From NCBI RefSeq assembly GCF_016735595.1, contig NZ_JAERRB010000005.1:1-64000 (forward strand): DNA of 64,000 nucleotides, given 5' to 3'. This document shows, piece by piece, positions 10,267 through 27,600 of this stretch. Positions within the stretch are counted from its first letter, which is position 1, and each line of letters starts with the position of its first letter. A model generated the notes under the pieces. It searched no databases. It saw nothing but the letters and a program-made list of their open reading frames with translations, and was not told where the DNA came from. The position numbers and the translations under genes were made by a program. The stretch is from Chryseolinea lacunae (GTDB taxonomy: Bacteria > Bacteroidota > Bacteroidia > Cytophagales > Cyclobacteriaceae).

Positions 10267-10322
10267 GCGATAAGGGCCGAAACAAAAATTGTGGAACGTG
10301 TTTCCTTCCCGAGTCCGCGCAG

Positions 10323-10583
10323 GTGAAAGTTTATGTTCACTGCGTTTGGTTCAGGCCTGCACGGGCATGTCGTTATTCAAAACAGAAGATAACGCTCCGC
10401 CTAGGGCATTGCCGAAAATGCCTGGACACTACCAAAATCAGCGCGACGCGCGCCCGAAAAGGAAGCGAAAAAACTGGATGCACGCGCTGCAACACCATCA
10501 CCGCAACTCAATTTGCATTGCGGATCTCTACTTTTTTTGACGCTCATGCCGCATTAGTCGAGCAAATGCGCGCATTCATCTAA
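10323..10583 (+). CDS. Doubtful small ORF with two CxxC pairs
   Basis: An 86-codon frame starting with GTG in the 403-base gap between the EF-G2 gene and the glycosyltransferase (10267-10669). It contains CRKC and CTRC about 20 residues apart, separated by a basic Thr/Ser/Arg/Gly-rich loop, which resembles a zinc ribbon. The rest of the frame has no recognisable character and the start is a weak GTG, so this may be chance. Nothing else is visible in this gap apart from the promoter at its right end. Confidence 0.25.
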   Translation: MKVYVHCVWFRPARACRYSKQKITLRLGHCRKCLDTTKISATRARKGSEKTGCTRCNTITATQFALRISTFFDAHAALVEQMRAFI

Positions 10584-10620
10584 TTGTAATCAAAAAATCG
10601 GAAACCAGGATTTGGAAACG

Positions 10621-10651
10621 ATTGTTTAACTAATGACTTTTTTTAGATTTG
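10621..10651 (+). promoter_or_regulatory. Promoter of the polyprenol-mannose synthase gene
   Basis: ATTG (10621-10624) lies 19 bases before TAGATTTG (10644-10651), a perfect TAnnTTTG. The GTG start codon at 10670 leaves a leader of only about 12 bases. Confidence 0.6.
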
Positions 10652-10669
10652 TCAACTTAGGCTATCTCC

Positions 10670-11425: not shown

Positions 11426-11443
11426 ACCAATCTGTATCCTTCG

Positions 11444-12001
11444 CTATTCTTGAAACCCTACAAAAGTTATCGGGCCCACGTGTGATTTCACCAGTTCCAG
11501 ATCGGGTTCGGTGATTTCGACTTCGTAGCCATCTTCCTTGAGCATGTTCAAAATATCCTCGGCGGCTTCGTGCTGTTTGTAGATGTGATAGTCTTCGCGG
11601 GCAAACACGGGATAACGTCCCAGTTTTTGTTCGCGGTCCACAAAGTTAAAGCCACAGAGGTACAACTTACTTGCGCTGTGCTGAATGCGATATAGCGGCA
11701 TCTGAGGATACTGCTGCAACCATTCCACCACTTCTTCACGCGTTCCTTGTATGATTTCCGTCAGCTTATAAATCTTCATCACTTCGCCTTGGTTGGGTTT
11801 GTCCAACATTCTAAGATCGAAGTTGTGAACATAGGCTGACAGGCCTACGCATCCGCACAATACCATCAATGGATTTTGCGCGTCACCATGCAATCGCACA
11901 TCCAGATTCTTCGCATTGAAGAATGCCTGAAGTCTACGATTTCGCTTCTGAATCGTGTTTGTTAGGTCCGGCCTAACTGGATTTTTGAATTTTAATTGCA
12001 T
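11444..12001 (-). CDS. Hypothetical cytoplasmic protein
   Basis: A 185-residue soluble protein with no recognised domain. The N-terminal third is basic (NTIQKRNRRLQAFFNAKN). The central part has alternating strands and helices (MKIYKLTEIIQGTREEVVEW, then LYLCGFNFVDREQ) and the C-terminus is acidic (EVEITEPDLELVKS). A perfect -7 element TATTTTTG lies upstream on the minus strand at 12050-12043, 42 bases before the ATG at 12001, supporting that start and independent transcription. No -33 TTTG is seen. It converges on the glycosyltransferase gene 18 bases away. Function unknown. Confidence 0.55.
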   Translation of the reverse strand: MQLKFKNPVRPDLTNTIQKRNRRLQAFFNAKNLDVRLHGDAQNPLMVLCGCVGLSAYVHNFDLRMLDKPNQGEVMKIYKLTEIIQGTREEVVEWLQQYPQMPLYRIQHSASKLYLCGFNFVDREQKLGRYPVFAREDYHIYKQHEAAEDILNMLKEDGYEVEITEPDLELVKSHVGPITFVGFQE

Positions 12002-12080
12002 AACATTTTAAACGTTACTGATAAGGTGGGCTCCTTATGTAACAAAAATAGAAAAATATTTCAGTTTAATATATTGTTAA

Positions 12081-13310
12081 CTAATCAAAACGGATGGCCT
12101 TAATGGGATTTATGCGGGCAATCACAATGGTAGGGATCAGTAACACGATTGTGACCACTAAAAACGTGAGCAGGTTCAGCATCGCAATCACTTCCCAATG
12201 CCAGGCGATAGGCACGAAACTCATGTAATAATCATGCGCATTTAGCTTAATTATCTTCGTTTGATCCTGCAAAAAGCACAAACCCAGTGCTAATGCATTG
12301 CCCAATAACAGCCCCTTCACCAATAAGTTTATGCCGTTGTATAGAAAAACAAACCGGATGGTGCGGTCGGTGGCCCCCATGGCCTTCAGCATGCCGATCA
12401 TCTGGGTGCGCTCCATCACCAGAATGAGGATTATGGAGATCATGTTCACGCAAACCACCGTTAAAATGATAAAAAGCAGAATATTGACCTGTCGACTAAT
12501 GAGATTGAGCCATTCAAACACCTGCACATATTTGTCGCGGATCAGTTCCACACTAAAATCCAGGTCCATGGCTTCGCTCAGCGCAAAGGCATCGGCCTCC
12601 ACGGCCTCGGGGGCGGTGTCGCGCACAAAAACTTCGAGGCCACCGGCCAGGCTGTCTGACCAGTCGTTCAGTTTCTGAATCATGCGGATGTCGCCCAGAA
12701 TCACCTGGCTGTCGAAATATTCGGAGAGGTTTGTTTCATAGATGCCGCTTACGGTGAGCTTGCGCGAACGGATGGGGTTCTGAAAAAAATGGATCACCAG
12801 GTTGTCGCCCACTTTGGCGTTGAGCTTGCCGGCAATGATCTTGCTGATGATGACCTGGTGGGCATAGCCGGAGTCGGGGAAATCGAAAAACTTGCCGTCC
12901 ACCATGTTGTCGCGAAAGGCGTTCACGTCATAGCTTTTGCCCACGCCCTTCAGCAGCACGCCCAGCACTTCGTCGTCTTTGGTTTTAACGAGGCCGGGTT
13001 TGTGGGCAAACTCCTGCATGTGCACCACGAACGGATATTTTTCCGGATGCACATAGGGCTCCACATGATAGTTCATGGGCCGCTCTTCGGTGGAGTTGCT
13101 CATGGTGAGCCGCGTCACCAGCATGTGGCCGTTAAAGCCATACACTTTGTTCTTCACCGTTTCCTGAAACCCGTGCATCACCAGAAACGAAATGATGCTG
13201 GCGGCAAGACCAATGCCGATGCTGGCGATGGCGATGTTGTGAATGGCCGATGCAAAACCCTGCCGTTGCTCGCGGCTTATTCTTTTGGATATGAAATAGG
13301 AAAGGTTCAC
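12081..13310 (-). CDS. FtsX/LolE-type ABC transporter permease
   Basis: A 409-residue inner-membrane permease. The layout is one N-terminal helix (about 24-46), a large periplasmic MacB-type core domain (about 47-270) and three C-terminal helices (about 273-300, 320-345 and 372-398) that form the FtsX domain. The coupling segment around MERTQMIGMLKAMGATDRTI is typical of lipoprotein-releasing LolC/LolE permeases. It probably works with a LolD-type ATPase encoded elsewhere to release lipoproteins from the inner membrane, consistent with the many lipoproteins in the window. It is divergent from the NamZ gene, with 83 bases between the two starts. Confidence 0.8.
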   Translation of the reverse strand: MNLSYFISKRISREQRQGFASAIHNIAIASIGIGLAASIISFLVMHGFQETVKNKVYGFNGHMLVTRLTMSNSTEERPMNYHVEPYVHPEKYPFVVHMQEFAHKPGLVKTKDDEVLGVLLKGVGKSYDVNAFRDNMVDGKFFDFPDSGYAHQVIISKIIAGKLNAKVGDNLVIHFFQNPIRSRKLTVSGIYETNLSEYFDSQVILGDIRMIQKLNDWSDSLAGGLEVFVRDTAPEAVEADAFALSEAMDLDFSVELIRDKYVQVFEWLNLISRQVNILLFIILTVVCVNMISIILILVMERTQMIGMLKAMGATDRTIRFVFLYNGINLLVKGLLLGNALALGLCFLQDQTKIIKLNAHDYYMSFVPIAWHWEVIAMLNLLTFLVVTIVLLIPTIVIARINPIKAIRFD

Positions 13311-13393
13311 CTGTTATTGCTAACTTTTCAGCCGTTAATGATCCCTGCAAAATAAGACAACCACACACCACAATCAACAGCCCGAATCCGATA

Positions 13394-14593
13394 ATGAAGA
13401 AAGTCATCGCCTTGCTCTTGATCGTTGCACACAGCACGTATTGCAGCAGCCATAAACAAACGCCCGCACAAGCCGCATCGCTCGCCACACCCGTGGCCAC
13501 ACAAACCACGGTGGTGACCGGCGCACAACAGCTCGACGTGCTGGTGCCGAAGCTCGCCGGCAAACGCGTGGCACTGGTCGTGAACTACACCGCCATGGTG
13601 GGCAAAACACACCTGGCCGATACGCTGAAGACACTCGGTGTGAACATCAAAAAAATTATGTCGCCCGAACACGGCTTTCGGGGCAACGCCGCCGCCGGCG
13701 AACATGTGAAAGACGGCGTGGACCCCAAGACGGGACTCGCCGTGGTGTCGCTCTACGGCAACAACCGCAAGCCCACCCCCGAACAACTGGCCGACGTTGA
13801 CGTGGTGGTGTTCGACATCCAGGATGTGGGCATCCGGTTCTTCACCTATGTGGGCACGCTCCACTACCTCATGGAAGCCTGCGCCGAAAACAACAAGAAG
13901 GTGATTGTGCTCGACCGCCCCAACCCCAACGCCTCCTACATAGACGGCCCCGTGCTGTTGATGGAATACAAGTCGTTCATAGGCATGCATCCTGTGCCCA
14001 TTGTGCACGGATTAACCACCGGGGAATATGCTCGGGTCATTAATGGCGAAGGATGGCTGGAAGGTGGCAAGAAATGCGAACTGGAGGTTGTGCCCCTCAA
14101 GCATTGGACACACGCCGACGCCTACTCGCTGCCCGTGAAGCCATCGCCCAACCTGCCCAACGACCAGGCTGTACGCCTTTATCCATCCATCTGCTTTTTC
14201 GAGGGCACGCCCATCAGCCTGGGTCGCGGAACACAAACACCTTTCCAGGTGATTGGCCACCCCGACCTGAAAACCCTCCCTTACCAGTTCACGCCCGTAG
14301 ACATTGCCGGCATGGCCACCGACCCGCCACAGGAAAACAAACTCTGCTATGGCCTTGACCTGCGCAACGTGCCCGTGCCCAAGCGGGTGGACCTGCACTA
14401 CCTCATCGACATGTATAAGCTCTATCCCGACAAGGCAAACTTTTTTGTGAAACACTTCGAACGCTGGTCGGGCACACCGGCGCTGCGTCAACAAATCATA
14501 GACGGCCTTTCCGAAGATCAGATCCGCGCCACCTGGCAAAGCGACCTGGACAAGTATAAACTGATGCGCCAGAAATACGTGCTCTACCCGTAA
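13394..14593 (+). CDS. namZ: NamZ-type exo-beta-N-acetylmuramidase (DUF1343, GH171)
   Basis: A 399-residue exported protein of the DUF1343 family, whose characterised member NamZ of Bacillus subtilis removes N-acetylmuramic acid from the non-reducing end of peptidoglycan fragments. It has an N-terminal signal sequence with a Cys near residue 17 (possibly a lipoprotein, although the lipobox is poor), a Rossmann-like core starting KRVALVVNYTAMVG, and the family blocks SPEHGFRG, VVFDIQDVGIRFFTYV and VLDRPNPN, then SLGRGTQTPFQVIG. The expected length is about 400 residues. It suggests muropeptide recycling or scavenging. It is followed 48 bases later by nth in the same direction. Confidence 0.85.
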   Translation: MKKVIALLLIVAHSTYCSSHKQTPAQAASLATPVATQTTVVTGAQQLDVLVPKLAGKRVALVVNYTAMVGKTHLADTLKTLGVNIKKIMSPEHGFRGNAAAGEHVKDGVDPKTGLAVVSLYGNNRKPTPEQLADVDVVVFDIQDVGIRFFTYVGTLHYLMEACAENNKKVIVLDRPNPNASYIDGPVLLMEYKSFIGMHPVPIVHGLTTGEYARVINGEGWLEGGKKCELEVVPLKHWTHADAYSLPVKPSPNLPNDQAVRLYPSICFFEGTPISLGRGTQTPFQVIGHPDLKTLPYQFTPVDIAGMATDPPQENKLCYGLDLRNVPVPKRVDLHYLIDMYKLYPDKANFFVKHFERWSGTPALRQQIIDGLSEDQIRATWQSDLDKYKLMRQKYVLYP

Positions 14594-14641
14594 AGCATTT
14601 CCACTACCGTTCAACCCCTGGCACACACGCGCGGCATCACC

Positions 14642-15277
14642 ATGACGAAAGCAGAAAAAGTAAACGACATTCTCGGCACACTCGATCACTATTATCCCGA
14701 GCCGCCCATTCCGTTGCATCACAAAGATGCCTACACCTTGCTGGTCTCCGTTTTGCTTTCGGCACAATGCACCGACGAGCGCGTGAACAAAACCACACCC
14801 ACCCTCTTCAAGCAGGCCGACAATCCCTACGACATGGTGAAGCTGAGCGTGGAAGAAATTCGCGAGATCATTAAACCCTGTGGCCTCTCGCCCATGAAGT
14901 CGAAAGGCATACATGGCCTCTCACAAATCCTGATCGACAAATACAACGGCGAGGTGCCCAACACGTTCGAAGGGCTGGAAGAACTTCCGGCCGTGGGCCA
15001 CAAAACGGCATCGGTGGTGATGACGCAATGGTTTGGCGTGCCCGCCTTTCCCGTAGACACACACATCCATCGCCTGGCCTACCGCTGGGGCTTGACAAAC
15101 GGAAAAAGCGTGGAGCAAACCGAGAAAGATCTGAAGCGCCTCATTCCCGAATCGAAATGGAACAAAGCCCACCTCCAGATCATCTACTATGGCCGCGAAT
15201 ATTGCCCCGCCCGCGGCCACCACTGGCAAGAGTGCCCCATCTGCGCGAAATATCTGCGCAAAGACCTTAGAGACTAA
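14642..15277 (+). CDS. nth: Endonuclease III with incomplete Fe-S ligand set
   Basis: A 211-residue DNA glycosylase/AP lyase for oxidised pyrimidines. The helix-hairpin-helix LEELPAVGHKTASVV (about 111-125) includes the catalytic Lys, and the catalytic Asp is in FPVDTHIHR (about 137-145). LLSAQCTDERVN near residue 39 is also typical. The C-terminal 4Fe-4S loop normally has four Cys (C-x6-C-x2-C-x5-C). Here only Cys 188, 198 and 201 are present, with nine residues between the first two and no fourth Cys before the C-terminus. The cluster may therefore be lost, be a 3-Cys form, or use another ligand. The glycosylase residues are intact. Confidence 0.9.
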   Translation: MTKAEKVNDILGTLDHYYPEPPIPLHHKDAYTLLVSVLLSAQCTDERVNKTTPTLFKQADNPYDMVKLSVEEIREIIKPCGLSPMKSKGIHGLSQILIDKYNGEVPNTFEGLEELPAVGHKTASVVMTQWFGVPAFPVDTHIHRLAYRWGLTNGKSVEQTEKDLKRLIPESKWNKAHLQIIYYGREYCPARGHHWQECPICAKYLRKDLRD

Positions 15278-15291
15278 CACCCATCGCGCAT

Positions 15292-15327
15292 AAAAAAAGC
15301 GAGACACAAATCCTTGCATCTCGCTTC
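15292..15327 (-). terminator. Terminator of the siroheme operon
   Basis: Stem AAGCGAGA…TCTCGCTT (15297-15304 with 15319-15326). On the minus strand it is followed by seven T residues, fitting the end of the operon finishing at 15351. It may also stop transcription of nth from the other side. Confidence 0.75.
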
Positions 15328-15350
15328 ATATTTTCACACGCTGGTGCTTC

Positions 15351-15944
15351 TCACTTCACCACCGCGGCATCTTCCAGCCACGTGGTGGTGATGTCGTTCA
15401 ACACTTTCACCTTGTGATTAAAATCCCCTTTAATCTGGTTGCGTATCTTCTGCATGTTATCCAACAACACATTCGTATCGTCGGGGATGGCTTCGTCCAG
15501 GTATTCGCGTATGCGCTTGGCAACCGTGGGCGACTTGCCGTTGGTTGACACTCCGATTTTCAAATTGCCTTTGGTCACTACCGACCCGAGATAAAAATCG
15601 CAGAGGTCGGGTGTGTCGGCCACGTTCACCAGAATTCGTCGTGTGCGGGCCAGCTTCTGAATGGCTTCGTGCAAAATGCGGTTGTCGGTAGCCAGCAACA
15701 CCAGGTCTTTGTCCCACAAATCCCACAACTTGAAATTGCGCTCAAACAACTTCACCTGCGGATGCGCCTTGGCCAGTTCCTTTATAGAATCCTGAATGGT
15801 ACGGGCCACCAGCGTCACCTTTGCCAGGGGACTGTTCTTTAGAATGGCCGATAGTTTTTCAAGTCCTACGTTGCCGCCGCCCACAATCAGGGTGTCGAGC
15901 GACTCCAGTTTCAGGAAAACGGGGAAAAGGTTGTTGCGCTCCAT
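15351..15944 (-). CDS. Precorrin-2 dehydrogenase / sirohydrochlorin ferrochelatase (Met8/CysG-N type)
   Basis: A 197-residue enzyme for the last steps of siroheme synthesis: NAD-dependent oxidation of precorrin-2 and probably iron insertion. The N-terminal Rossmann motif is VGGGNVGLEKL (about 22-32), followed by DLVLLATDNR and VNVADTPDLCDFYLGS (about 111-126), which carries the conserved Asp and substrate-site residues. The segment IGVSTNGKSPTVAKRIREYL is the family signature. It is the third gene of the operon, 14 bases after the SUMT gene. Siroheme is the cofactor of the sulfite reductase encoded first in the operon, so the three genes supply enzyme and cofactor together. Confidence 0.9.
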   Translation of the reverse strand: MERNNLFPVFLKLESLDTLIVGGGNVGLEKLSAILKNSPLAKVTLVARTIQDSIKELAKAHPQVKLFERNFKLWDLWDKDLVLLATDNRILHEAIQKLARTRRILVNVADTPDLCDFYLGSVVTKGNLKIGVSTNGKSPTVAKRIREYLDEAIPDDTNVLLDNMQKIRNQIKGDFNHKVKVLNDITTTWLEDAAVVK

Positions 15945-15958
15945 GGGGATGTTTTATT

Positions 15959-16744
15959 TTATTGATACTGTGTAACTACTTCCTGCGTGAGGTCGGTCAG
16001 TGCACGGGCATGCCGCACCACTTCGCCCACAATCATGATGGCCGGGGAGCCAATGCCCACCGCCGCTACCTTGGCCACTATGTCGTTCACCTTGCCGGTG
16101 ACCATGCTTTGACTTGGCAACGTGCCGTTCTGCACCACGGCCACCGGCGTTTCCGATTTGCCATGCTGTGCAAACAGCTGCATGATGGATTCAATTTTAT
16201 TGAGCCCCATCAAAATCACCACCGTGGCCGACGACTGTGCGGCCAGGGCAATGTCGTTCGACAGGTCGCCCGACTTTGTGGTGCCCGTCACCACCCAAAA
16301 GCTTTCGCTCACGCCGCGCTCCGTCACCGGCACGTTCACGCTTGCTGGCACGGCCAGCGCGCTGCTAATGCCCGGCACCACGGCGGTGGTCACGCCATGC
16401 AGTTCGGCAAAGGCCACTTCTTCGGCACCACGGCCAAACACAAACGGATCGCCGCCTTTCAGCCGCACCACGTGGCCAAAGGCATAGGCATATTCCACAA
16501 TCATTTCGTTGATCTCGTCCTGGCTGTGCGAATGCGCGCCCGCACGTTTCCCTACCGAAAACGCCGGCACCCCCACGGGTATGAGCGACAGAATTTCTTC
16601 CGACACCAGTGCATCAAACAGCACCACGTCGGCAGCCTTCAGCGCCATCAGCCCCTTCAAGGTTAGCAGTTCCGGATCGCCCGGTCCTGCTCCCACCAGC
16701 GTGACGCGTGGTGGTTTGCCAAATGTGAGCACGGTTGGTATCAT
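15959..16744 (-). CDS. cobA: Uroporphyrinogen-III C-methyltransferase
   Basis: A 261-residue SAM-dependent methyltransferase that makes precorrin-2. Signatures are VGAGPGDPELLTLKG (about 17-31, first SAM loop) and VRLKGGDPFVFGRGAEE (about 93-109), then TGTTKSGDLSND and the VILMGLNKIE segment. The length is that of stand-alone SUMT enzymes, with no fused uroporphyrinogen synthase or CysG-N domain. Its ATG overlaps the end of the sulfite reductase gene by four bases, so translation is coupled. It feeds the Met8-type enzyme encoded next. Confidence 0.93.
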   Translation of the reverse strand: MIPTVLTFGKPPRVTLVGAGPGDPELLTLKGLMALKAADVVLFDALVSEEILSLIPVGVPAFSVGKRAGAHSHSQDEINEMIVEYAYAFGHVVRLKGGDPFVFGRGAEEVAFAELHGVTTAVVPGISSALAVPASVNVPVTERGVSESFWVVTGTTKSGDLSNDIALAAQSSATVVILMGLNKIESIMQLFAQHGKSETPVAVVQNGTLPSQSMVTGKVNDIVAKVAAVGIGSPAIMIVGEVVRHARALTDLTQEVVTQYQ

Positions 16745-18879
16745 TTTGCTACAGCGACTTTCACTGTTTCTTTTTCTCCACCATCCGTTTCTTCCGCTCT
16801 GAACGTGGAAACGCTGGCCATAAATTTCGTGGAGTCGGCCAGGAAGGTGCGCGCAAAACTTTCGGAAGGTTCGTTCTTGTTGATGCGCAACACGTGTTCT
16901 TTAAAGTTGCCTTCGAAGGCAAACGCGCCGGTTTCCACAAACAGTTTCTGGAAATCGAGTATGGTCTGAATCTGTGTGCTGGGCTTCACATCGCGACCCA
17001 GCAACAATGCTTTCGCCGTGTTGATGAATGCGCTGTAGCTGTGATAGATCGAGTCGGCATACATGCCCTGATCCAAAGCCTCTTTTGCCCAGCCCAATTT
17101 ATCTTCCGAATCATAGAGCAATGTCGACACGAGGTCGATCATCACCCCCGCGCACTCGCCCACGGCGGTGTGCAGAATGAAGTTGTGGTCTTCGCCCCAG
17201 TCGATATATTCATCGGGCGTTGTGGCCGTGATGTCGCCAAGCGGTTTCAGCAATTGGTAGAAGTGGTTTCTGCCGATGCGTTTAAAGTAGTCGTGATAAT
17301 ATTCGCCGGGCAGACTGTTGGCTTCATAGTCGCCCAACAGATAGCGCAGCGCCACAGGCCCACGCTTGCTGGGGATCTTGATGATTTTGTCGGAGATGAT
17401 GCCATCGCCGCCCTGCAGTTTGCCACCGCCCAACAACACGACCAGCGCGGGCAACACTTTGCCTTGCTTGTCTTTGATGGTGCTGCCGTGCAAACCAATG
17501 CTGGCCAACCCGTGCTGACCGCACGAGTTCGGGCAACCGCTGATTTTGATTTTGATGTCGTTGTTATAGATGAGGTCGGGAAACTCTTCGCGCACCACTT
17601 TTTCGAGCGCCAGCGAAATGCCGGTGCTGCTCGAGATGCCGAGGTTACAGGTGTCGGTGCCGGGGCACGCCGTTACGTCGGCCACGCTGTCGAAGCCGGG
17701 CTCGGCCAATCCCAAACGGTCGAGTGCGAGATAGAGGTGTTTCAGGTTTTCGCCGCGCACAAAGCGGAGCAGGTAGCCCTGGTTGATGGTGACGCGCATT
17801 TCGTCGGCCGCAAACTGATCTACGATGCTGGAGAACGAACGCGCCATGTTTGACGTGAAGTTGCCCAGCGGCACTTTCACATTCACACCAAAGAAGCCTT
17901 CCTGTTTTTGCTCAAACACGTTGGTGTCGTGCCACTGCTCATATTTCTTTTGATCGGTGACTTCGGCAATGCCGCCAGCCAGCTCTTCGGGAATTACCGG
18001 GTCGGGCAACGCCTCTGTGTTGATGGCGTAGCTTTTGTTTTTAATGGCCAGTCGCTCTTCCTGCACCAGCGCCAGCAAGGCTTCGAGCCCGATGTCGTCG
18101 AGCAAAAACTTGAGGCGTGCTTTCATGCGGCGGTTGCGTTCGCCATAGCGATCGAACACGCGCAACACAGCTTCGGTGAAGGGCACAATCTGGTCTTCTT
18201 CCAGGAACTCGTGCGCCACCGGTGCCAGATAGGGGTTGGCGCCCAGGCCACCGGCAATCACCACCTTGAAACCACGCTTGCCGTCCACGATGCGGGGAAT
18301 GAAGCCGAGGTCGTGAATGAAGGTGTAGGCGGTGTCGTCGTCGCTGCTGGAGAAAGCAATTTTGAATTTGCGGCCCATCTCCTGGCAAATCGGGTTGCGC
18401 AAAAAGTATTTAAACATTTCGTTCGCATAGGGCGACACGTCGAAGAGTTCTTTGGGGTCGATGCCCGCGGTGGGCGATGCCGTGATGTTGCGCACGGTGT
18501 TGCCGCAGGCTTCGCGGGTGGTGATTTCGTCTTTCTCCAGTTTGGCCCACAGCTCGGGTGTGCGGTCCAGGCTCACAAAGTGAATCTGGATGTCCTGGCG
18601 TGTGGTGGCGTGCAGGGTGCTGCTGGCATATTCGTCTGAGATGTCGGCGATGCGGCGCATTTGTTTGGTGGTAAGCCGCCCGTAGGGCAGTTTGATGCGG
18701 ATCATTTGCACGCCGGGTTGGCGCTGCCCATAGATGCCGCGTGCCAACCGGAGGCCACGGAATTTTTCACTGTCTATCTTTCCATCGCGGAAGAGCCTGA
18801 TTTTCTTTTCCAGGTCAATGATGTCGCGTGCAACGATGGGGTTGTTCAAGTCTTCTAGTTCTGAGCGAAAGCTTTCCAT
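16741..18879 (-). CDS. Sulfite/nitrite reductase hemoprotein with C-terminal HEPN-like extension
   Basis: A 712-residue siroheme and 4Fe-4S reductase, probably assimilatory sulfite reductase giving sulfide for cysteine synthesis. Two ferredoxin-like half domains and two catalytic repeats are present. The cluster and siroheme Cys pairs are TACPGTDTCNLG (about 402-413) and SGCPNSCGQHG (about 444-454). The N-terminal GIYGQRQPGVQMIRIKLP and STLHATTRQDIQIHFV segments are typical. After the reductase core ends near residue 570, about 140 extra helical residues (AKEALDQGMYADSIYHSYSA) resemble a HEPN domain. A nitrite reductase cannot be excluded on sequence, but the Cys-rich leader peptide upstream argues for sulfur assimilation. 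First gene of the siroheme operon. Confidence 0.85.
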   Translation of the reverse strand: MESFRSELEDLNNPIVARDIIDLEKKIRLFRDGKIDSEKFRGLRLARGIYGQRQPGVQMIRIKLPYGRLTTKQMRRIADISDEYASSTLHATTRQDIQIHFVSLDRTPELWAKLEKDEITTREACGNTVRNITASPTAGIDPKELFDVSPYANEMFKYFLRNPICQEMGRKFKIAFSSSDDDTAYTFIHDLGFIPRIVDGKRGFKVVIAGGLGANPYLAPVAHEFLEEDQIVPFTEAVLRVFDRYGERNRRMKARLKFLLDDIGLEALLALVQEERLAIKNKSYAINTEALPDPVIPEELAGGIAEVTDQKKYEQWHDTNVFEQKQEGFFGVNVKVPLGNFTSNMARSFSSIVDQFAADEMRVTINQGYLLRFVRGENLKHLYLALDRLGLAEPGFDSVADVTACPGTDTCNLGISSSTGISLALEKVVREEFPDLIYNNDIKIKISGCPNSCGQHGLASIGLHGSTIKDKQGKVLPALVVLLGGGKLQGGDGIISDKIIKIPSKRGPVALRYLLGDYEANSLPGEYYHDYFKRIGRNHFYQLLKPLGDITATTPDEYIDWGEDHNFILHTAVGECAGVMIDLVSTLLYDSEDKLGWAKEALDQGMYADSIYHSYSAFINTAKALLLGRDVKPSTQIQTILDFQKLFVETGAFAFEGNFKEHVLRINKNEPSESFARTFLADSTKFMASVSTFRAEETDGGEKETVKVAVAK

Positions 18880-18920
18880 GTTCTGAGCGGTTGTTCGTTT
18901 GGTATGGTGGTTAAATAAAA

Positions 18921-18947
18921 GAGCCTTTCCTGTGGCAGGAAAGGCTC
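18921..18947 (-). terminator. Attenuator terminator in the leader of the sulfite reductase operon
   Basis: A perfect 12-bp stem GAGCCTTTCCTG/CAGGAAAGGCTC with a three-base loop is followed on the minus strand by TTTTATTTAA. It lies between the Cys leader peptide and the sulfite reductase start at 18879, so it must be bypassed for operon expression. Its 5' arm and loop (TCCTGCC, 18940-18934) can instead pair with GGCAGGA (19003-18997) near the end of the leader ORF, giving an antiterminator. Confidence 0.8.
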
Positions 18948-18981
18948 GGTATGTTGTTCTGTTTTCAGTTTCTACTGTGTC

Positions 18982-19077
18982 TTACGTACCGGATGCTCCT
19001 GCCTCTACATGAAAATGTTTACAGCAACACTTCGCTGTATTGATCTTCTTCGGCATAATGGTCATCACATTCTTCAT
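18982..19077 (-). CDS. 31-residue Cys-rich leader peptide (attenuator)
   Basis: A short ORF starts at the ATG at 19077 and ends at the TAA at 18984-18982. The peptide starts MKNVMTIMPKKINTAK, then has three consecutive Cys at residues 17-19 (codons TGT TGC TGT), then KHFHVEAGASGT. It sits directly upstream of a strong terminator and the sulfite reductase operon. The Cys codons lie inside a small hairpin (19020-19025 with 19034-19039). The likely role is ribosome-mediated attenuation: when Cys-tRNA is scarce the ribosome stalls on the Cys run, GGCAGGA stays free and prevents the terminator. Cysteine-rich leader peptides before sulfur genes are known in actinobacteria. I know of no described example here. 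Confidence 0.75.
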   Translation of the reverse strand: MKNVMTIMPKKINTAKCCCKHFHVEAGASGT

Positions 19078-19086
19078 ACGTTCCAA

Positions 19087-19118
19087 CGAAAGTAGGCTAC
19101 GCGCCTCAAATAATCAAA
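19087..19118 (-). promoter_or_regulatory. Promoter of the sulfite reductase operon
   Basis: TTTG (19118-19115) is separated by exactly 20 bases from TACTTTCG (19094-19087), one mismatch from TAnnTTTG. Transcription would start close to 19080, so the leader peptide ORF at 19077 would be translated almost from the 5' end. Confidence 0.5.
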
Positions 19119-19152
19119 TTAAAATCTATTTAAATTGTAGGGTATGTAGGGC

Positions 19153-19590
19153 TTATGGATTAACAGTCGTTCGGGAGGCGTTGCAATCGAATGCTTCAAG
19201 GGAATTCTCCCCTCTCCTTTTCGACCAATGTCTCGCCTGAAACTCCGTCGGGCCTTCTGCCGTCATAAGCATCCCTAACGTGGTCGCGAAACAATTCGTT
19301 TCCGCGTGTGTCAAAAAACAGTTTTCATCGCACCACCGGCGCCGCGGTGTCAGAACTTCACAACAAACAGCGCGGTGGGCGTGCCCCTCCTCCGTCGGGT
19401 CGGTTGTCCGTTGCAAGTCCTCGCCCCACCGCACCTCCCGCCCTTCGCTGTGGGCTTTCCTCTTCCACCCCTCACGCGGTGTCTCCTTCCATAAGCCCTT
19501 CGATGTTAATTTGACACACGCCCCTTTCAACATCAACGCCACCCTGCAACAATCTCCACACGTGTGGCATTCGCATCCTATTCTGTTCAA
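19153..19590 (-). other. Unexplained purine-rich minus-strand stretch with a 145-codon frame
   Basis: The gap 19119-19661 has no recognised gene. The minus strand is strongly purine-rich and holds an open frame of 145 codons with many Cys, Trp and Arg (for example CHTCGDCC and RHWSKRRGENSLEAFDCN). The plus strand is open for over 120 codons in the same place. Open frames on both strands and the odd composition suggest chance or a decayed or repetitive noncoding element rather than a protein gene. Confidence 0.3.
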
Positions 19591-19661
19591 CGCCGGGCAT
19601 GTTTATCTGCGCGCATCAAACCATCCCTTAAACAAAATCGCCCTGCTGAGCCGGAATGAAT

Positions 19662-19682
19662 TTTGAGAAGATATTTCTCAAA
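19662..19682. promoter_or_regulatory. Palindromic operator candidate
   Basis: Perfect inverted repeat TTTGAGAA-GATAT-TTCTCAAA, 17 bases ahead of the start codon of the stress-type flavin-binding gene. The position suits a repressor site or a hairpin in the 5' leader. No regulator is encoded next to it. Confidence 0.45.
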
Positions 19683-19699
19683 CACTAAACACAAACATC

Positions 19700-20221
19700 A
19701 TGAAAAACGAAGCATCGGAAATAAAAAACCTTACCCACGAAGAGGCCATCGACAAGTTTAAAGAACTTGTGAAACATGAATCGACCTGCCTCTTCACAAC
19801 ACAGCTCACGCAGCTTCCCTTAACCACGCGCCCCATGGGCATTCAGAAAGTGTGCGACCAAGGAAACTTCTGGTTTCTCAGCGCCTCCGACAGCGACAAA
19901 AATCAGGAGATCGCCGACGACCCCAGAGTGCAACTCTTCATCAGCAACACCTCGAACTACGAATTCCTGTCTATCTACGGCCATGCCACCATCACCCGCG
20001 ACCCACAAAAGATCGACGAGCTATGGACCGACATCGCCAAAGCATGGTTCCACGAAGGCAAAGACGACCCCCGTGTAACGGTCATTAAAGTGACACCCGA
20101 ACAAGGATTTTATTGGGACACCAAAGATGGAAAGCTGGTGTCGACAATCAAGATTCTCGCATCGGCCGTTTCGGGAAAAACATTTCAGGAAGGTGTGGAA
20201 GGAACTATCACAGTTCGGTAA
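19700..20221 (+). CDS. General-stress-protein-26-type pyridoxamine oxidase-like protein
   Basis: A 173-residue protein of the split-barrel flavin-binding (pyridoxamine 5'-phosphate oxidase-like) family, similar to general stress protein 26. Visible features are the strand CLFTTQL, then LTTRPMGIQKVCDQGNFWFL (about 40-60), SDSDKNQEIADDPRVQLFIS and the GHATITRDPQKIDELW segment, in family order. The length is typical. Members bind FMN or FAD, but the substrate is generally unknown. A perfect palindrome lies just upstream and a terminator just downstream, so it is a single-gene unit, likely stress-responsive (inference). Confidence 0.85.
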   Translation: MKNEASEIKNLTHEEAIDKFKELVKHESTCLFTTQLTQLPLTTRPMGIQKVCDQGNFWFLSASDSDKNQEIADDPRVQLFISNTSNYEFLSIYGHATITRDPQKIDELWTDIAKAWFHEGKDDPRVTVIKVTPEQGFYWDTKDGKLVSTIKILASAVSGKTFQEGVEGTITVR

Positions 20222-20275
20222 GGCTAAATGCGATTCGTCAAACACGGATCAATGTAACGTCATACTCAGGAACCA

Positions 20276-20314
20276 ACGTGTAAGGTCCTTTCGCCAAGAA
20301 AGACCTTACACGTC
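20276..20314 (+). terminator. Hairpin terminator
   Basis: Near-perfect stem ACGTGTAAGGTCcTTTC (20276-20292) with GAAAGACCTTACACGT (20298-20313), following the stress-type gene. The T tract is poor, so it may act for both strands. Confidence 0.6.
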
Positions 20315-20328
20315 TCTTCTACAATTCT

Positions 20329-21182
20329 TCAATCGGCATTGTCGGCCATGGGCAAACGTATTTCGCTACTTCTGTTCTCATTCTTCGATTTTCGAATAAA
20401 GCATTCTGTAAGAAATATTCCTGCCGATAAAACCAGGACTCTCGTAAGCAAGTTAAAAATTGAATTGGATACGTTGTCGTTCTGCGACGTTACGAACAAT
20501 GATTCCACGCCTTGATTCATCCCGAGTATTGAAAGCGTTAGGTTTAAACCCACGTGAATTCCTGTGGGTAGTGCAATGCCCTTAGATCTGATTGCTGCTA
20601 TTCCAAATACAAATGCCCATACTCCAGGTCCCAGTGAAGCGGTGAGGATGCTCCACCCCAGAGATATATGATAAAGAATGAACGCAACCGAAATTATGAG
20701 CTGGGCCGGCCATAGCCCCATGGTCCTTTTCAGTTTTAACAGAGGATATGATCGAAAAGCAATTTCTTCCATAAATGCCGCCGGAAGTATGGCCAAATAC
20801 CAGAACCAAATGCAGGGGTCTCGGGGTTGGGGATTTTTCTGAATGTCAAGTCCGGCCAATAGCACTAACATCAACATGATTAGGGCGATACTGGCCACGC
20901 CTGTTAATAGCCCTGCAATAAACCTGAACAATGTGCCCGGTTCCAAATCAGGTCATAATCTGCGAAAGAACTTCGCTCCGATCTCAAAAAGATCCAGGTA
21001 ACAAACAAAGCCAAAGCTGAACCAAAAACACCAACGGCAAAGCGGTGAACATGCGTTGAGAAGATAGTGCCGGATTGAATCAAGAAAGGGATTAATACGA
21101 TAAGAAACAACGCCCAATAGCCGGCGACTTTTATAATTGGCTTTAGTTTATCAGTTCTGAAATTTGAGACACGATTAAACAT
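20329..21182 (-). pseudogene. CPBP-family intramembrane protease gene broken by a frameshift
   Basis: Two overlapping minus frames together encode one CPBP (CAAX protease/bacteriocin-processing type) membrane protein. The 5' part (21182 to about 20947) has two membrane segments and ends …SFADYDLIW. The continuation starts with EPGTLFRFIAGLLTG in another frame at about 20946, and would follow the Trp directly if one base were added. The 3' part carries the family motifs EEIAFRS (EExxxR), the His of FILYHIS and GIHVGLN. Joined length is about 280 residues, normal for the family. No slippery sequence is visible at the junction, so decay or a single-base sequence error are the likely explanations. 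Confidence 0.7.
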
Positions 21183-21601
21183 TGTTTGATCCTGTTTTTA
21201 ATTGCTGAAAGGATGGGGTATGGAGCATCCCAATGAAACTAAAGTTATCGATTTCTATCAGGCGGGCATAGGCCTGGCACCAACCCTGCCTTTATTCCGC
21301 ATGGAATAAACTTTTCACCATGCGCCCTAAACATCCGGATAAGTTCTCTGTTTCTGCTTCAGCAACCGCTATTAAAACTGGCTCGCCTTTCAAACGTTGC
21401 CAAGGCCAATGCATTTCCTGTGCTTCAGGGATTAAGGGTGTGAGCGTGCTCGATCAGAGATCACACACACGCACACTGTGTAAATAATTCCACACCGTAT
21501 CTCCCACAAAAAACACCGACAAACCCAACGATGCTACCACTGCAATAAAATTTATTGGTATATTGCGGAACTGTAGACGAGCCCAAACCCTACAAAACCT
21601 A
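21183..21601. other. Intergenic region upstream of the giant repeat protein
   Basis: No convincing gene. It includes a 20-base palindrome, TTTATTCC-GCAT-GGAATAAA, at 21291-21310. A 68-codon minus frame (21454-21660) with one hydrophobic stretch overlaps the next gene and is considered chance. Confidence 0.4.
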
Positions 21602-24600
21602 ATGACTTCATCGCTCACTCGCGGCAACGTGATTCGTAATCTGGTTGCCCTTTTTTTCACCTTCTCTTCGGCCCTTTGTTTTTCTCAAACGTTCACAGGC
21701 GCCCCCACCATTTCAACCGCTGGCCCCTATTGTGCCGGTTCTTCCATCACCGTGAACTGGGCCATATCCAGCAATTTCACGGCGGGAAACACGTTCACCG
21801 TCCAGCTGTCGAACGCTGCCGGAACCTTTGGTGCGCCCACTACACTGGGATCGGTGAGCAGCAACAGCGCCACATCACTGGCCGTAACCATCCCCCTGAC
21901 ACAGGCGGCGGGCGCGGGCTATGTGGTGCGCGTCACCAGTTCCAACCCGGCGCTCAACAGCGCGTCGTCTGCGGCGTTCACCATCACGCCACTTGGGCTC
22001 AGTGCGCCCACCGTCGCAGGCTCACCGTTTTGTGCTGGCACTACCTTCAACATCACGAACAATCTGGCAAATGCCTGTAGCTTCGGAGCGGCCAACACCT
22101 TCACCGTGCAGCTGTCCAACGCGGCCGGAACGTTTGGTGCACCTGTTAACATTGGCTCTGTGTCGTCCACAACGGGCGGCAACATCTCCGTGACGCTGCC
22201 TGTGGGCACGGCGGCAGGTGCCGCCTATGCGATCCGTGTGGTCAGCTCCAGCCCGGCCATCACCAGCGCATCATCTTCTGCATTCACCATCACAGCACCC
22301 GCGCTCAGTGCTCCCACCGTGACGGGCTCTCCGTTTTGTGCGGGCACTACCTTCAACATCACCAACAACCTGGCAAACGCCTGCGACTTCGGGGCCAGCA
22401 ACACATTCACGGTTCAGCTGTCGAACGCGGCCGGAACCTTTGGTGCGCCCGTTAACATTGGCTCTGTTTCGTCGGTGACGGGCGGCGCCATTTCCGTGAC
22501 CCTTCCCTTGGGTACCGCGGCGGGTGCGGGCTATGTTGTGCGGGTGGTAAGCTCCAGCCCGGCATTGACCAGTGCCAACAGCGGCGCCTTCACCATCAGT
22601 GCCGTTAGCCTCAGTGCACCTACCGTGACGGGTACGCCATTTTGCGCAGGCACTACCTTTAACATCACAAACAACTTACCCAACGCCTGCGACTTTGGGG
22701 CCGGCAACACGTTCACCGTGCAGCTGTCGAACGCGGCCGGAACCTTTGGTGCGCCCGTTAACATCGGTTCTGTCTCGTCAGTCACAGGCGGTGCCATTTC
22801 CGTGACCCTTCCGTTGGGTACGGCAGCGGGCGCGGGCTATGTTATGCGTGTGGTCAGCTCCAGCCCGGTAGTGACCAGTGCCAACAGCGGCGCCTTCACC
22901 ATCAGTGCGCTTGGCATCAGTGCCCCCACCGTGGCGGGCTCTCCGTTTTGCCAGGGTGCTACGTTCAACATCACAAACAACCTTCCCAACGCGTGTAGCT
23001 TTGGCGCGGGCAACACATTCACGGCGCAACTCTCCGACAACACGGGCAGCTTCACCACGCCCACCACCATCGGGTCTGTGGCGTCGCTCACAGCGGGTGC
23101 CATTTCGGTTACGCTTCCATCGGCTGCACCCGCCGGAGCGGCCTATCGCATTCGGGTGGTCAGCTCAAATCCGGTGGTGACGGGCACCGTGAGCGGTACT
23201 TTCACCATTAACGCACCCGGGCTCAACGCCCCTACCGTAACGGGCACAACCTTTTGTTTGGCCACCAGCTATAACATCACCAACAACCTCAGCAACGCCT
23301 GTGCGTTCGGGGCGGGCAACACCTTTAATGTTGAGCTTTCGGATGGGGCGGGGAGCTTTGCTGCGCCGGTTGTTATCGGCACTTCGGCCTCCACAGCGGG
23401 AGGAACTATTTCCGTTACCATCCCCGGCAACACCACGCCGGGAACAGGTTTCAGAATGCGTGTCACCAGCACCAGCCCTGCGCTCACCAGCGCGATCAAC
23501 GGCGCCAACCTCACGGTGAGTGCCTACGGCATTAATGCGCCTACGTTTATTGGCACAACGTTGTGTCCCAACCAGCCGCTCACGGTGAACTATACCTTGC
23601 TGAATGCCTGCGGGCTTCCCAACACGCCGTCGGCCAACGTGTTCACGGCGCAGTTGTCGAATGCCTTTGGTGCTTTCTCGAGCCCCACGGTGATCGGCAC
23701 AGTTACGTCAAACACCGGGGGTTCCATCGCCACCACCATACCTGTGGGCACCACGCCGGGCAACGGCTACCGCATCCGTGTGGTCAGCTCCAACCCGGGC
23801 ATCGGGCTCATCAGCCCCGACAACGGTGCCAACCTCACCGTCAATGCCATCAACCTCAACGCGCCGACCTTTGGTGCCACTACCTATTGCGCGGGTGCCA
23901 CATTCACGCTGAGCTATACGTTTGTGAGCGGGTGTAATTTCATTGCAGGCAACACGTTTACGGCGCAGCTCTCCGATGCCAGTGGCAGCTTTGCGTCGCC
24001 GGTCACCATCGGCACATCCAACGCCACCGCGCCCGGCAACTTCGCGGTTACCATTCCACCGGCAACGACCTTTGGCACGGGCTATCGCATTCGTGTGGTG
24101 GCGTCTAACCCGGCCGTTACCAGTCTCGACAACGGCGCCGACATCACCATCAATGCCCTGGGCATAAACGCGCCCACCTTCACGGGCACTTCGTTTTGTC
24201 AGGGCCAGGTGTTTAACGTAGCCTATACCATTCAAAGCGCCTGCGCGTTTCCCAACACACCGGCCAACAACATCTTCACGGCGCAATTGTCAGGCCCCAC
24301 GGGCAGCTTCGCTTCACCCACCACGCTTGGCACATTGCAGGCCACGGGTTCGGGCACTATTGTGGCCACGATTCCCGGCGGCACACCGGCGGGCACAGGC
24401 TATCGCATTCGGGTGGTCAGCTCCAACCCGGGCACGGGGGTGCTGGGCGCGAGCAACGGAACAGACATCACCATCAACGCCAGCGCGGGCAATCCGAATG
24501 TGTTCGGAACAACCGCCTGGAATGTGTATGCCTATGCCGGCAATGCTTTTCCCATCACCAACAACACCTATGTGGGAACCTATACCGAAAACAACCTGAG

Positions 24601-27600
24601 CTTTGACTCGCGCAATCGCTGGGGCAACGCCGTTGGTCCAGGCGCAGCCGATGCAACATCGGGTTCCGCTTACGCGGGATGTCCTGTGGGGGCAACAAAC
24701 TATGCCATGAGTTTCAAGCGAACCAACTTCACGTGCGGCTACTACCAGATCGACATCCCCGCCCACGATGATGATATACGCCTGTTCATTAACGGCACGC
24801 AGGTTTTCAGCCACGTGGGCTGCTGCGATGCGCACACCAATGTGTGGACAGGATTTCTGAACAATGCATCTACAGTTGAGTTTCAACTCTTCAACGGCGG
24901 GGGCACCGGCTATTTGCAGGCCAGCTTCAACACCGCGGCCAACCCGTTGACTGTGTCGCCCAACATTGTGCAGTGCTCTGCGCCCATCACACCGGCCACG
25001 CTGTCGGTGAGCGCACCCGTGGCATTGAGCTATGCATGGACACCCACCAACGGCCTCACACCGGCCAGCGGATTGGGTGCCAGCGTGCAGGCCGCACCCG
25101 CCACAACACGCACCTACACCGTGACCGGCACCGACGCCACCACGGGATGCTCCGTAACGGGCAACGTAACCGTGACGGTGTCTAACGCCACGCCTACACT
25201 CACCCTCACCACCGTGCCGGCAACGATATGTTCCGGCGTTGTTACGTCAACCTTGTCTGTCAGCGGCGCCTCCACCTACACCTGGTCGCCTGCCACGGGA
25301 CTCAGTGCCACTACCGGAAATGTGGTCATCGCCAACCCACCCTCCACCACTACCTATACCGTGGTGGGCAACAACGGTTGTGCGGCGCCGGGAGGCAATG
25401 GCACCGCCACCAGCACGGTGACCGTGCAGACCATTCCGGGTTCGCCATCGCCATCGGCTTTTGGAAACGGTGTGTGGAACGTGTTCACGTATAACAGCAC
25501 CAACCTCACCGACTTCTACGGCTACTATTCCGAAAACACGCTGAACTTCAACACGGCAACGCGATGGGCACCCGCCAGCGGTCCCACAATAGCGAATGCA
25601 ACCACGGGCTCGGCCTATTCGGGCTGTACCGTTCCTGCCACGAACTATTCCATGAGCTTCAAGCGAACCAACTTCACATGTGGCTACTATCAGATCGACA
25701 TCCCCTACCAGGACGACTACCTTACCATGCTTATTGACGGCGTGCAGGTGTTTCAACGCAACGCCTTCACCAGCGTGTTGCAGCCCAACGTGTGGACAGG
25801 ATTTCTCGGCCCCACGTCTACGGTAGAATTCCAACTCATCAACTTTAATGGCCCTGGTCAGTTGCAAGTGTCGTTCGCGGCTTCTGCGTCGCGGCCTCAG
25901 TCGCTCAACACCGACATCGTGGTTTGTGCAGGCACGGGTGCCGTGCTCAGTGCCACGTCGGCACTGGCGGGCGCAACCTATTCGTGGGCCGTGAGTCCGG
26001 CCGATCCCACCATCACGTTCACACCGAGCAACACCGGCTCTGCTCCCACCATTCAAACCACGGCCGCCACGCCGGGCGGAGCCTACACCGTCATCAACAC
26101 ACTGACCGACGCCGCCACCACGGGATGTTCGGTGACCCGGAGTTTTACGATGACCGTGAACCCCGTTCCCAACACCACCGTGACACCTACTTCTGGCACC
26201 ATCATCTGCCCCACGGCGGGCATCACCTTAACGGCCAGTGGTGCTGCGAGCTACACGTGGAGTCCTGCGGCGGGCCTTAGCGCCACCACCGGCTTCTCTG
26301 TGGTAGCCACGCCCACCACCACTACGACCTATACGGTGACGGGTTCGAACAACTGCGCTTCCAATGCCGCAACATCAACCATCACCGTTATTCCGCTGGC
26401 CACCGTTTCCACCTTTCCCACGGGCACGTGGAATGTGTATGGCTTCAACTCCACCACCATAGGCACAAGCTATCAGGGCTACTATACCGAGAACGGCAGC
26501 GGTGCCACCGGTTTGGATTTTGATACGCGTACACGCTGGGGCACAGGCCTGGCACCTTCAACAGCAAATGCCACCAACGGAAACGCATGGCTGGGTTGCA
26601 CGATGAACGCCACCACCATAAGCCTCAGCTTCAAACGCACAGGCTTCACCTGCGGCACCTATCAACTGGATGTTCCCGGACACGACGACGACTTCCTGCT
26701 GTTCATTAACGGTGTGCAGGTGGCGCAACACACGGGCGGCTGCTGCGACGTGCACACCAACGTGTGGACCGGCGTGCTGAACGCCAACTCCACCGTGGAG
26801 TGGCAACTGAAGCAGGGCACGGGTGGTTCGTTTCTCCAGGTAGCGTTTACGCTCATTCCTCCCACGGCCGGGACCACGGTGTGGTTAGGCGGCACAAGCA
26901 ACGATTGGTTCTCTGCGGCCAACTGGTGCAACGGTGTGCCCACGGCAACCACCGACGTAATCATTCCGGCAGCAGGTCCGCAAAACATGCCCGTCATCAA
27001 CGCTAGCGGCGCCGTGGTGCGCAACATCACCATCAGCCCCGCCGTTGCGGCCAGCACCTTCACCAACCTGATCCCGGCCGGGATCCTCACCACCAACGCC
27101 TTCAACCTCGATGTGAACGGCAACTGGAACAACGGGGGCTCGTATGTGGCCAACACCGGATCGATAAGCTTTGTGGGCACCGGCGCGGGCAACACCATCA
27201 CCAGCACCAACGCCGAAACCTTCAACAACCTGATCATCAACAAAACCAACGGCATCACCATGACGTCGGGCATACATCAGGTGTCGGGCAACATGACATT
27301 CACCAACGGCATCGTTACCCAAAGCGGCACGCTTCGCATACTGAACGGGGGCACTGTTTCGGGCGCATCCAACAGCAGCTTTGTGAGCGGCAACGTGACC
27401 AAGGTGGGCACAAACGCGTTCACCTTCCCCGTGGGCAAGGGCACGCTCTACAGACCCATCTCCATCTCGTCACCGGCCGTGGCCACCGATGCATTCACCG
27501 CGCAGTATTTCAACACCTCTCCTATCGGCACCTATCCCAATGCCCAACGCGCCTTCACACTCGATCACGTGAGCAACGCGGAGTATTGGATGCTGAACCG

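Follow-up and report, generated by a model that had tools for sequence, protein, structure and literature searches.

The sir operon and its neighbourhood

The window considered here is the whole stretch of DNA that was analysed, that is, 64,000 nucleotides of a Chryseolinea lacunae contig (NZ_JAERRB010000005.1, positions 1 to 64,000). On its minus strand lies what is predicted to be a sulfite reductase–siroheme operon, consisting of the following genes.

16741..18879, minus strand: sir, nitrite/sulfite reductase haemoprotein, first gene of the putatively regulated operon (PF01077 and PF03460)
15959..16744, minus strand: uroporphyrinogen-III C-methyltransferase, siroheme synthesis (TIGR01469, above cut-off)
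15351..15944, minus strand: siroheme synthase N-terminal domain protein (TIGR01470, above cut-off)

Against the NCBIfam equivalogs this sir scores below every cut-off, with the best scores seen with the ferredoxin-nitrite reductase and NirA models. The identity assigned to it is a prediction which rests on PF01077 and PF03460, on the accompanying siroheme genes, and on the CysH/CysD-family genes found near the sir genes of relatives. It is because those genes adjoin sir in relatives that sulfite, rather than nitrite, is taken to be the substrate. By eye, that is, sir has a PF01507 (CysH/CysD family) gene at a distance of at most 2.5 kb in 31 of the 45 family genomes that possess sir among 60 searched, the own genome not being one of the 31; 13 of those 31 sir genes, again by eye, carry the leader described below. 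No leader was seen upstream of cysD or cysH in the C. lacunae genome itself, and a candidate cysD/cysH leader in two relatives, an MCCIKMF ORF, was set aside, since we take it to be antisense to an upstream gene. By sir, Chryseolinea serpens (83%) is the closest relative with a name.

Among upstream genes, the nearest to have a family match (19700-20221) is divergently oriented and encodes a pyridoxamine-oxidase-like protein. A mechanically called same-strand ORF also is present upstream of the leader (19590-19153). Pfam gives it no match at E<=1, and a counterpart is lacking in 14 relatives, the best tblastn match being of 14 residues with an E of 0.65. With this ORF unmatched and the nearest matched gene divergent, there thus is no upstream gene known which the terminator described below might serve. 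Elsewhere in the window, at 21563-28366 on the plus strand, is a 2267-codon ORF with repeated domains and a C-terminal end which by eye resembles a secretion sorting domain.

The leader ORF and its alternative folds

Upstream of sir are found, in order of transcription, the following features.

19115..19118, minus strand: predicted promoter -33 element, TTTG (consensus match)
19087..19094, minus strand: predicted promoter -7 element, TACTTTCG (consensus match)
18982..19077, minus strand: leader ORF, 31 codons plus stop (sequence; related leaders in relatives)
19020..19039, minus strand: small hairpin holding the Cys codons (predicted fold)
19021..19029, minus strand: three Cys codons, TGT TGC TGT, residues 17-19, putative sensing codons (sequence and 11-sequence alignment)
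18997..19003, minus strand: antiterminator 5' arm, block 1, GGCAGGA (sequence, fold, alignment)
18987..18991, minus strand: antiterminator 5' arm, block 2, CGGTA, overlapping the ORF end (fold)
18947..18951, minus strand: partner of block 2, TACCG, its last base being the first base of the terminator (fold)
18934..18940, minus strand: partner of block 1, TCCTGCC, the top of the terminator 5' arm plus loop (sequence, fold)
18921..18947, minus strand: intrinsic terminator, 12 bp with a loop of 3 (fold; 97.7% of cells paired in 11 sequences)
18913..18920, minus strand: U-tract, TTTTATTT (sequence)

The leader ORF encodes the peptide MKNVMTIMPKKINTAKCCCKHFHVEAGASGT, with 12 codons following the Cys run. 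The predicted promoter consists of TTTG, a 20-nt spacer, and TACTTTCG, with the -7 element ending 9 nt before the leader ATG. This assignment depends on a promoter consensus which we take to be the applicable one. At least 9 of 10 positions of that consensus are matched in 29 of the 66 leaders tested, i.e., those having 95 nt upstream and a near terminator, versus in 3.3% of shuffles.

The terminator reads GAGCCTTTCCTG-CCA-CAGGAAAGGCTC and then TTTTATTT, and this perfect hairpin with its U-tract is found 41 nt before the sir ATG. As a whole, the 19077-18900 region folds at -45.3 kcal/mol (z -3.9), with none of 200 shuffles as good. If the 3' arm of the terminator is withheld, that is, if only 19008-18934 is folded, then what is predicted instead is the antiterminator, which joins GGCAGGA with TCCTGCC and CGGTA with TACCG at -18.9 kcal/mol (z -2.9), 1 of 200 shuffles doing as well. 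Once the 3' arm is included, it is the terminator which wins in the full fold, at -25.2 versus -18.9, and for that reason the switch must be kinetic, i.e., co-transcriptional.

The initial annotation had proposed a 31-codon ORF with Cys at residues 17-19 as well as a perfect 12-bp terminator followed by the sulfite reductase start, and both are as described (19077-18982 on the minus strand, and 18947-18921 with the sir ATG at 18879). The GGCAGGA/TCCTGCC complementarity which it noted also is found, as part of an antiterminator that, with CGGTA/TACCG added, is longer than was claimed. The Cys run was said in addition to lie within its own small hairpin, and one is indeed predicted (19039-19020), though for this Cys-codon part the fold is not better than expected by chance (z only -1.4).

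Rfam covariance models, applied to 10000-22000 at E<=1, gave no match to the leader, their single match being elsewhere and below its cut-off. A search of the own genome for TGYTGYTGY was uninformative (2082 matches versus 2081 in the control).

A probable cysteine attenuator

Attenuators of the trp, his, and leu types, as found in Proteobacteria, combine regulatory codons, alternative hairpins, and an intrinsic terminator. The window displays the same architecture, differing in amino acid and in lineage. We consider it very probable, with function inferred from sequence, that the leader acts by ribosome-mediated transcription attenuation, sensing charged tRNA-Cys and controlling the sulfite reductase–siroheme operon.

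Under this proposal, RNA polymerase would start just upstream of the leader ORF, with a ribosome following. Given ample cysteine, that ribosome would pass the three Cys codons and reach the stop codon, there covering block 2 and crowding block 1 of the arm (18987-19003). With the arm blocked, the terminator (18947-18921) would form and transcription would end. When cysteine instead is short, the ribosome would wait at codons 17-19, its edge approximately 5 nt before the arm; the arm, being free, then could pair with the 5' half of the terminator once that has been made, and polymerase would read into sir. Here the ribosome is assumed to cover 26 nt with the codon in the middle, as in the accessible portion of PMC13236596. 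When centred on the stop codon, such a footprint covers block 2 and ends 1 nt short of block 1.

What can be read from the sequence are the ORF, the predicted terminator, two pairings which exclude one another, how these elements are spaced, and the fact that they are conserved together. Leader translation, stalling, readthrough, and the response to cysteine are inferred. Criteria for an attenuator which are met include a short leader ORF with a codon run for the pathway end product, an intrinsic terminator between leader and first gene, and, between the stall codons and the stop, an antiterminator which excludes the terminator, this last being singly significant in only 41 of 82 loci.

Conservation among close relatives

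The sir upstream region of the window was aligned with those of 10 relatives, chosen for having the leader. Other close relatives were left out, as L008/L037 and L010 lack a leader, the terminator of L007/L039 is weak, and L038 has CWHC. Throughout these 11 sequences at least two consecutive Cys codons, the CAGGA of block 1, the partner of CAGGA, and the terminator persist together. Block 1 is present as GCAGGA in 10 of the 11 and as CAGGA in all 11, its partner being TCCTG in 10 and TTCTG in one. The core antiterminator helix has 97% of cells paired, with block 2 less conserved (61%). As pairs hardly vary among such close sequences, this is conservation, with covariation there uninformative.

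Occurrence across the family

Of 148 family genomes searched, 108 possess sir, and all 108 upstream regions were taken. A leader was defined as an ATG-initiated ORF of 10-60 codons with Cys-Cys, found at most 450 nt upstream of sir. Such ORFs are seen in 58 of 108 regions, versus 10/108 on the antisense strand, 3/105 in the next 450 nt, and 63/1080 shuffles, with ORFs possessing three Cys more distinctive still (40/108 versus 1/108, 1/105, and 4/1080, respectively). Elsewhere, three-Cys ORFs are found in 9 of 70 named genomes obtained by similarity, 6 of 29 from the order, and 1 of 29 from the phylum, with none antisense in any of these sets. The equivalent two-Cys counts, sense versus antisense, are 21 versus 8, 10 versus 6, and 3 versus 4. 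Outside of the family, two Cys alone thus say little. (Two of 72 named genomes were dropped for short upstream regions, and the next-450-nt control lost 3 of 108 family and 1 of 70 named loci.)

Terminators, i.e., hairpins of -10 kcal/mol or better in the last 140 nt before sir, are found in 53 of the 58 leader loci versus 10 of the 50 others (Fisher p 1.5e-14), with 17/58 and 8/50, respectively, as the opposite-strand control. The search which had been suggested, for CC or CCC ORFs followed by terminators ahead of sulfur genes, thereby was carried out for sir. Loci mostly have both elements or neither (53 both, 40 neither, 5 with leader only, and 10 with terminator only, of 108). Separate conservation of Cys run and terminator, which the initial annotation had named as grounds for refutation, is mostly not what is seen across the family, nor is it seen within the 11 aligned sequences.

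Leader carriers by name include Chryseolinea, Ohtaekwangia, Chitinophaga, and Adhaeribacter. No convincing leader was found in the sir upstream regions of Spirosoma, Runella, Larkinella, or Flectobacillus. Some likely leaders are missed by the Cys-Cys rule, e.g., those with CWHC (L038) or CGFC (L046), and 50 of the 108 sir genes are without a leader by that rule, many of these by eye residing within cys operons.

Sir leaders of the Spirosomaceae type (L064, L073, L075, L078, L096, L097) have no Cys ORF but do display a short hairpin which resembles a terminator and ends in T-rich sequence, possibly representing another sensor. By eye, a CTACAAAATCTATAGG-like motif recurs in Chitinophaga (L046, L052, L053, L054) a short way past the predicted promoter, with a TCTATAGA-like counterpart upstream of sir in Spirosomaceae (L064, L073, L075). 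This motif perhaps is an operator for a sulfur regulator.

Antiterminator covariation and the leader as peptide

Complementarity between the segment following the Cys codons and the terminator 5' arm was scored against mononucleotide shuffles in 82 loci, these being 87 less 5 without terminator, with exact duplicates removed and near-identical pairs kept (e.g., L007/L039, L027/L028, L136/L137). In some loci it was the farther of two ORFs that was scored (L027, L028, L139, L251, L256, L260, L275, L276). Complementarity is significant at p<=0.05 in 41 loci, including 24 at p<=0.01, and is not significant in the other 41.

Considered collectively, the arms nonetheless pair better with their own terminators than with those of other loci. 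That is, across the 72 of 82 loci retained for permutation (loci being dropped if the terminator overlapped the leader or was too distant from it), mean pairing energy is -13.47 with true partners versus -10.22 (sd 0.32) with permuted ones, the lowest of 2000 permutations being -11.57. The true terminator arm ranks within the best 5% in 17 of these 72 loci and within the best 10% in 25. Arms vary by clade, i.e., GCAGGA, GGGAAAGGC, ATCAGCAGG, or TATCCG, and as they differ between clades yet match their own partners, there is covariation between clades.

Among the 25 best-10% loci, the median distance from the last Cys codon to the start of the arm is 11 nt (8 nt or more in 20, under 8 nt in 5), and in none of the 25 does the arm start beyond the position immediately following the stop codon. 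These predicted positions are largely what the stall model needs.

In one clade of 14 sequences (L011-L013, L017-L022, L024, L026, L136, L137, L146) the peptide R-(C/R)-(A/E)-C-W-(F/Y)-W-C-C is kept as the R, A, C, and F codons vary synonymously. Synonymous change under a kept peptide implies that the leader in that clade is selected as protein, beyond Cys. The aromatic residues remain unexplained, and a contribution by the nascent chain is possible in this W-F-W clade.

Further predicted targets

A five-Cys pattern was sought in 16 genomes that were hand-picked, mostly for Cys-rich sir leaders. Among the matches listed, 30 loci plus 37 further stretches were inspected, with 22 of the latter constituting all remaining listed places of six genomes (known sir leaders excepted) and 15 hand-picked from G030, G075, and G139. 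Most of the matches inspected are in other reading frames or lack an ATG. At least 15 distinct leader-like ORFs were found, 12 of the 15 preceding sulfur-assimilation genes or a ferredoxin. Six precede sir, three precede metY, one precedes an O-succinylhomoserine sulfhydrylase gene followed by sir, and one, with terminator, precedes a CysM-like cysteine synthase; three others precede, one each, a YfhL-type ferredoxin, an NhaC-family antiporter, and a RimK-like ATP-grasp protein, and the last is located at a contig end.

The cysteine synthase was then sought in 98 genomes, giving 13 loci, 11 with a Cys-run leader (the seed locus included; no shuffle or antisense control). A terminator is found behind the leader in all 11 and in 12 of the 13 overall. 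Cysteine synthase is, by this prediction, a second target of the terminator-type Cys leader design, one unrelated to sir. The own genome has no relative of this leader-bearing cysteine synthase at E<=1e-60.

A SAM-I/poly-Cys composite

Of 98 genomes searched, 78 were found to possess metY, and 30 of the loci were taken. All 30 have a SAM-I aptamer (RF00162) above the gathering score, and in 27, the own genome's included, the first ORF within 60 nt after the aptamer has Cys-Cys. In 24 of those 27 the ATG is 6-10 nt past the aptamer, most often 9. The aptamer is roughly 670-710 nt before metY in L360, L365, and L367. Within 450 nt of metY, Cys-Cys ORFs are seen in 25 of 30 loci in the sense direction, versus 2 antisense and 4 further upstream. 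The own metY leader ends ...RMCCCCAARCC (L358; L411, G000:C24:385892-387593).

These leaders differ from those of sir in where the run is placed, with a median of 1 codon following it in 25 measured metY leaders versus 11 in 73 terminator-type leaders. A terminator is found in 7 of 30 metY loci; in the other 23, none reaching -10 kcal/mol is present in the final 200 nt. The metY leaders mostly would fit, that is, the mycobacterial poly-Cys pattern of run near stop and no terminator. As a separate observation, a structured-looking block, TAGCC...CTGCC...GTGACAGG...GGTTACGGCTA, follows the poly-Cys ORF, with changes, in five close metY sequences.

The combination extends beyond metY. An ORF with CC or CxC is found in 15 of 32 SAM-I loci taken, these being part of all SAM-I matches, and none of those with a metH-like gene (as read from N-terminal sequence, with one confirmed) has such an ORF. 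SAM-I is present as well in 9/15 and 13/20 selected sulfur loci, and an aptamer plus two stacked Cys leaders precede sir in L256, L260, L275, and L276, and likewise in L287.

A second SAM-I aptamer of the own genome (L416, G000:C6:19126) is followed by an ORF ending Cys-Cys-Cys and then by a PhyH-family dioxygenase gene, which may be an unexpected sulfur-linked target. The own genome's third SAM-I, before homocysteine methyltransferase, has no poly-Cys leader. In genome G027, SAM-I plus a six- or seven-Cys ORF precedes the NhaC-family antiporter and RimK-like ATP-grasp genes (L298 and L333), an arrangement by which the two genes may be linked with sulfur or cysteine.

It may be, then, that Cytophagales and relatives possess a cis-RNA cysteine regulon of two modules, the first a Cys leader of the terminator type, as with sir and cysteine synthase, and the second a SAM-I aptamer approximately 9 nt before a poly-Cys ORF, as with metY and others. 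In the latter, SAM would gate translation of the Cys-sensing ORF, with one leader integrating two metabolites. For this regulon we judge the case to be evenly balanced.

Alternative readings

The folds, the enrichment of leaders, the link between leader and terminator, the permutation result, the arm positions in the 25 best loci, the recurrence of the design with cysteine synthase, the gene neighbours of 12 of the 15 five-Cys ORFs, and the 13 leader-bearing sir genes near a CysH/CysD-family gene are the points which, as predictions, would favour attenuation. Against it are the 41 of 82 loci without significant antiterminator, the 50 of 108 sir genes without leader, the leaderless cysD and cysH of the own genome, two-Cys ORFs which in the phylum sample do not exceed the antisense count (3 versus 4 of 29), the greater stability of the terminator in the full fold, and the stop-centred footprint which ends 1 nt short of block 1. 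So too, in 5 of the 25 best loci, is an arm less than 8 nt past the last Cys codon, which places it beneath the stalled ribosome. A different cause of stalling would leave the RNA switch downstream the same: arrest of the ribosome might be due to the nascent leader peptide and not to a lack of charged tRNA-Cys, the trigger being a small molecule such as sulfide or cysteine, or else a metal to which the Cys run binds. Selection on non-Cys residues in the R-(C/R)-(A/E)-C-W-(F/Y)-W-C-C clade is consistent with such arrest. The window leader, however, is without W-F-W, and only the Cys run is common across clades, with its length (2-7) and spacing varying; since these vary, codon counting provides a better fit than does a binding site, and we view peptide arrest as improbable. 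A reading of the Cys run as a metal-binding motif likewise was rejected, as Cys spacing varies.

Still less probable is that control is exerted at the level of translation, with the leader governing initiation at sir and the hairpin a by-product. Poly-Cys ORFs of Mycobacterium smegmatis are reported as translation attenuators, at least in the accessible text of PMC13236596, and a similar role here would be in keeping with that precedent. In actinobacteria, though, the Cys run is near the stop and no terminators are described, so far as the available part of PMC1262725 extends, whereas the window has 12 codons after its run and a perfect terminator 41 nt before the sir ATG, a terminator that is tied to the leader across the family. 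Least credible, to the point of being very nearly dismissed, is an ordinary terminator of an upstream transcript accompanied by a chance Cys-rich ORF. Two-Cys short ORFs do occur in about 6% of shuffled upstream regions, and there is the mechanically called ORF at 19590-19153 to supply such a transcript. That ORF is unmatched and unconserved, however, and the nearest matched gene is divergent, so a terminator of an upstream gene was rejected; furthermore, Cys runs, arm, and terminator are conserved together, both in the 11 sequences and family-wide. Attenuation by charged tRNA-Cys sensing thus remains the reading that we prefer.

Relation to known systems

The closest printed match found is uORFC-8-2 of Rhodobacterales, a Cys-codon uORF plus terminator before cysS (Brewer et al. 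2021, PMC8632094). As described in the available portion of that article, it resembles the window in its tandem Cys codons (usually codons 14-15) within the first stem, its terminator with U run, and the mechanism proposed. It differs in preceding a cysteinyl-tRNA synthetase gene and in belonging to another class, versus three Cys, sir, and Bacteroidota for the window.

With the mycobacterial poly-Cys ORFs the window shares a poly-Cys short ORF before a sulfur/cysteine operon. The leaderless ones of mycobacterial cys operons reportedly are cysteine-responsive, going by the title of work by Canestrari et al. from 2020. They are cited as such, with translation attenuation in M. smegmatis, in passages of PMC13236596 and PMC9094748. 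Poly-Cys ORFs were predicted as well before actinobacterial cys operons, without terminators and with the run near the stop (Seliverstov et al. 2005, PMC1262725, in part). Going by those passages, the mycobacterial and actinobacterial ORFs have their run near the stop and no conserved terminator, whereas in the window the run is followed by 12 codons and the terminator is paired with an antiterminator. The mycobacterial precedent invoked by the initial annotation consequently stands as to poly-Cys ORFs before sulfur genes and not as to mechanism, which is reported, in the accessible text of PMC13236596, as translation attenuation versus the terminator type of the window.

Within Bacteroidota, leader-peptide attenuation has been suggested before amino-acid operons of Flavobacterium psychrophilum (PMC9723704) and sORFs reminiscent of leader peptides are described for Bacteroides thetaiotaomicron (PMC7366714), with no cysteine leader, unlike the window, named in the main-text passages concerned, supplements excluded. 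From the available main text of an attenuator survey (PMC2965389), words that start with Bacteroid, Flavobact, or Cytophag are absent. A published Cys leader from Bacteroidota was not found in the open-licence literature, without supplements, and to that extent the earlier statement that no example has been described still applies. The aptamer is common to the SAM-I riboswitch (RF00162) and the metY leaders, which add a poly-Cys ORF; no description of that pairing was found in the literature searched. The kind of mechanism thus is known, with lineage, target, and SAM-I composite looking new as far as searched.

Significance

To our knowledge, how cysteine is sensed for sulfate assimilation in Bacteroidota has not been described. 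The attenuator would provide a concrete mechanism for that sensing. Translation initiation in Bacteroidota is unusual, and the finding suggests that classic coupled transcription-translation attenuation is common in the phylum. If true, the SAM-I–poly-Cys composite would represent two-input RNA logic that is undescribed in the literature searched, and it could assign roles to unnamed genes, such as that for the NhaC-family transporter in L298.
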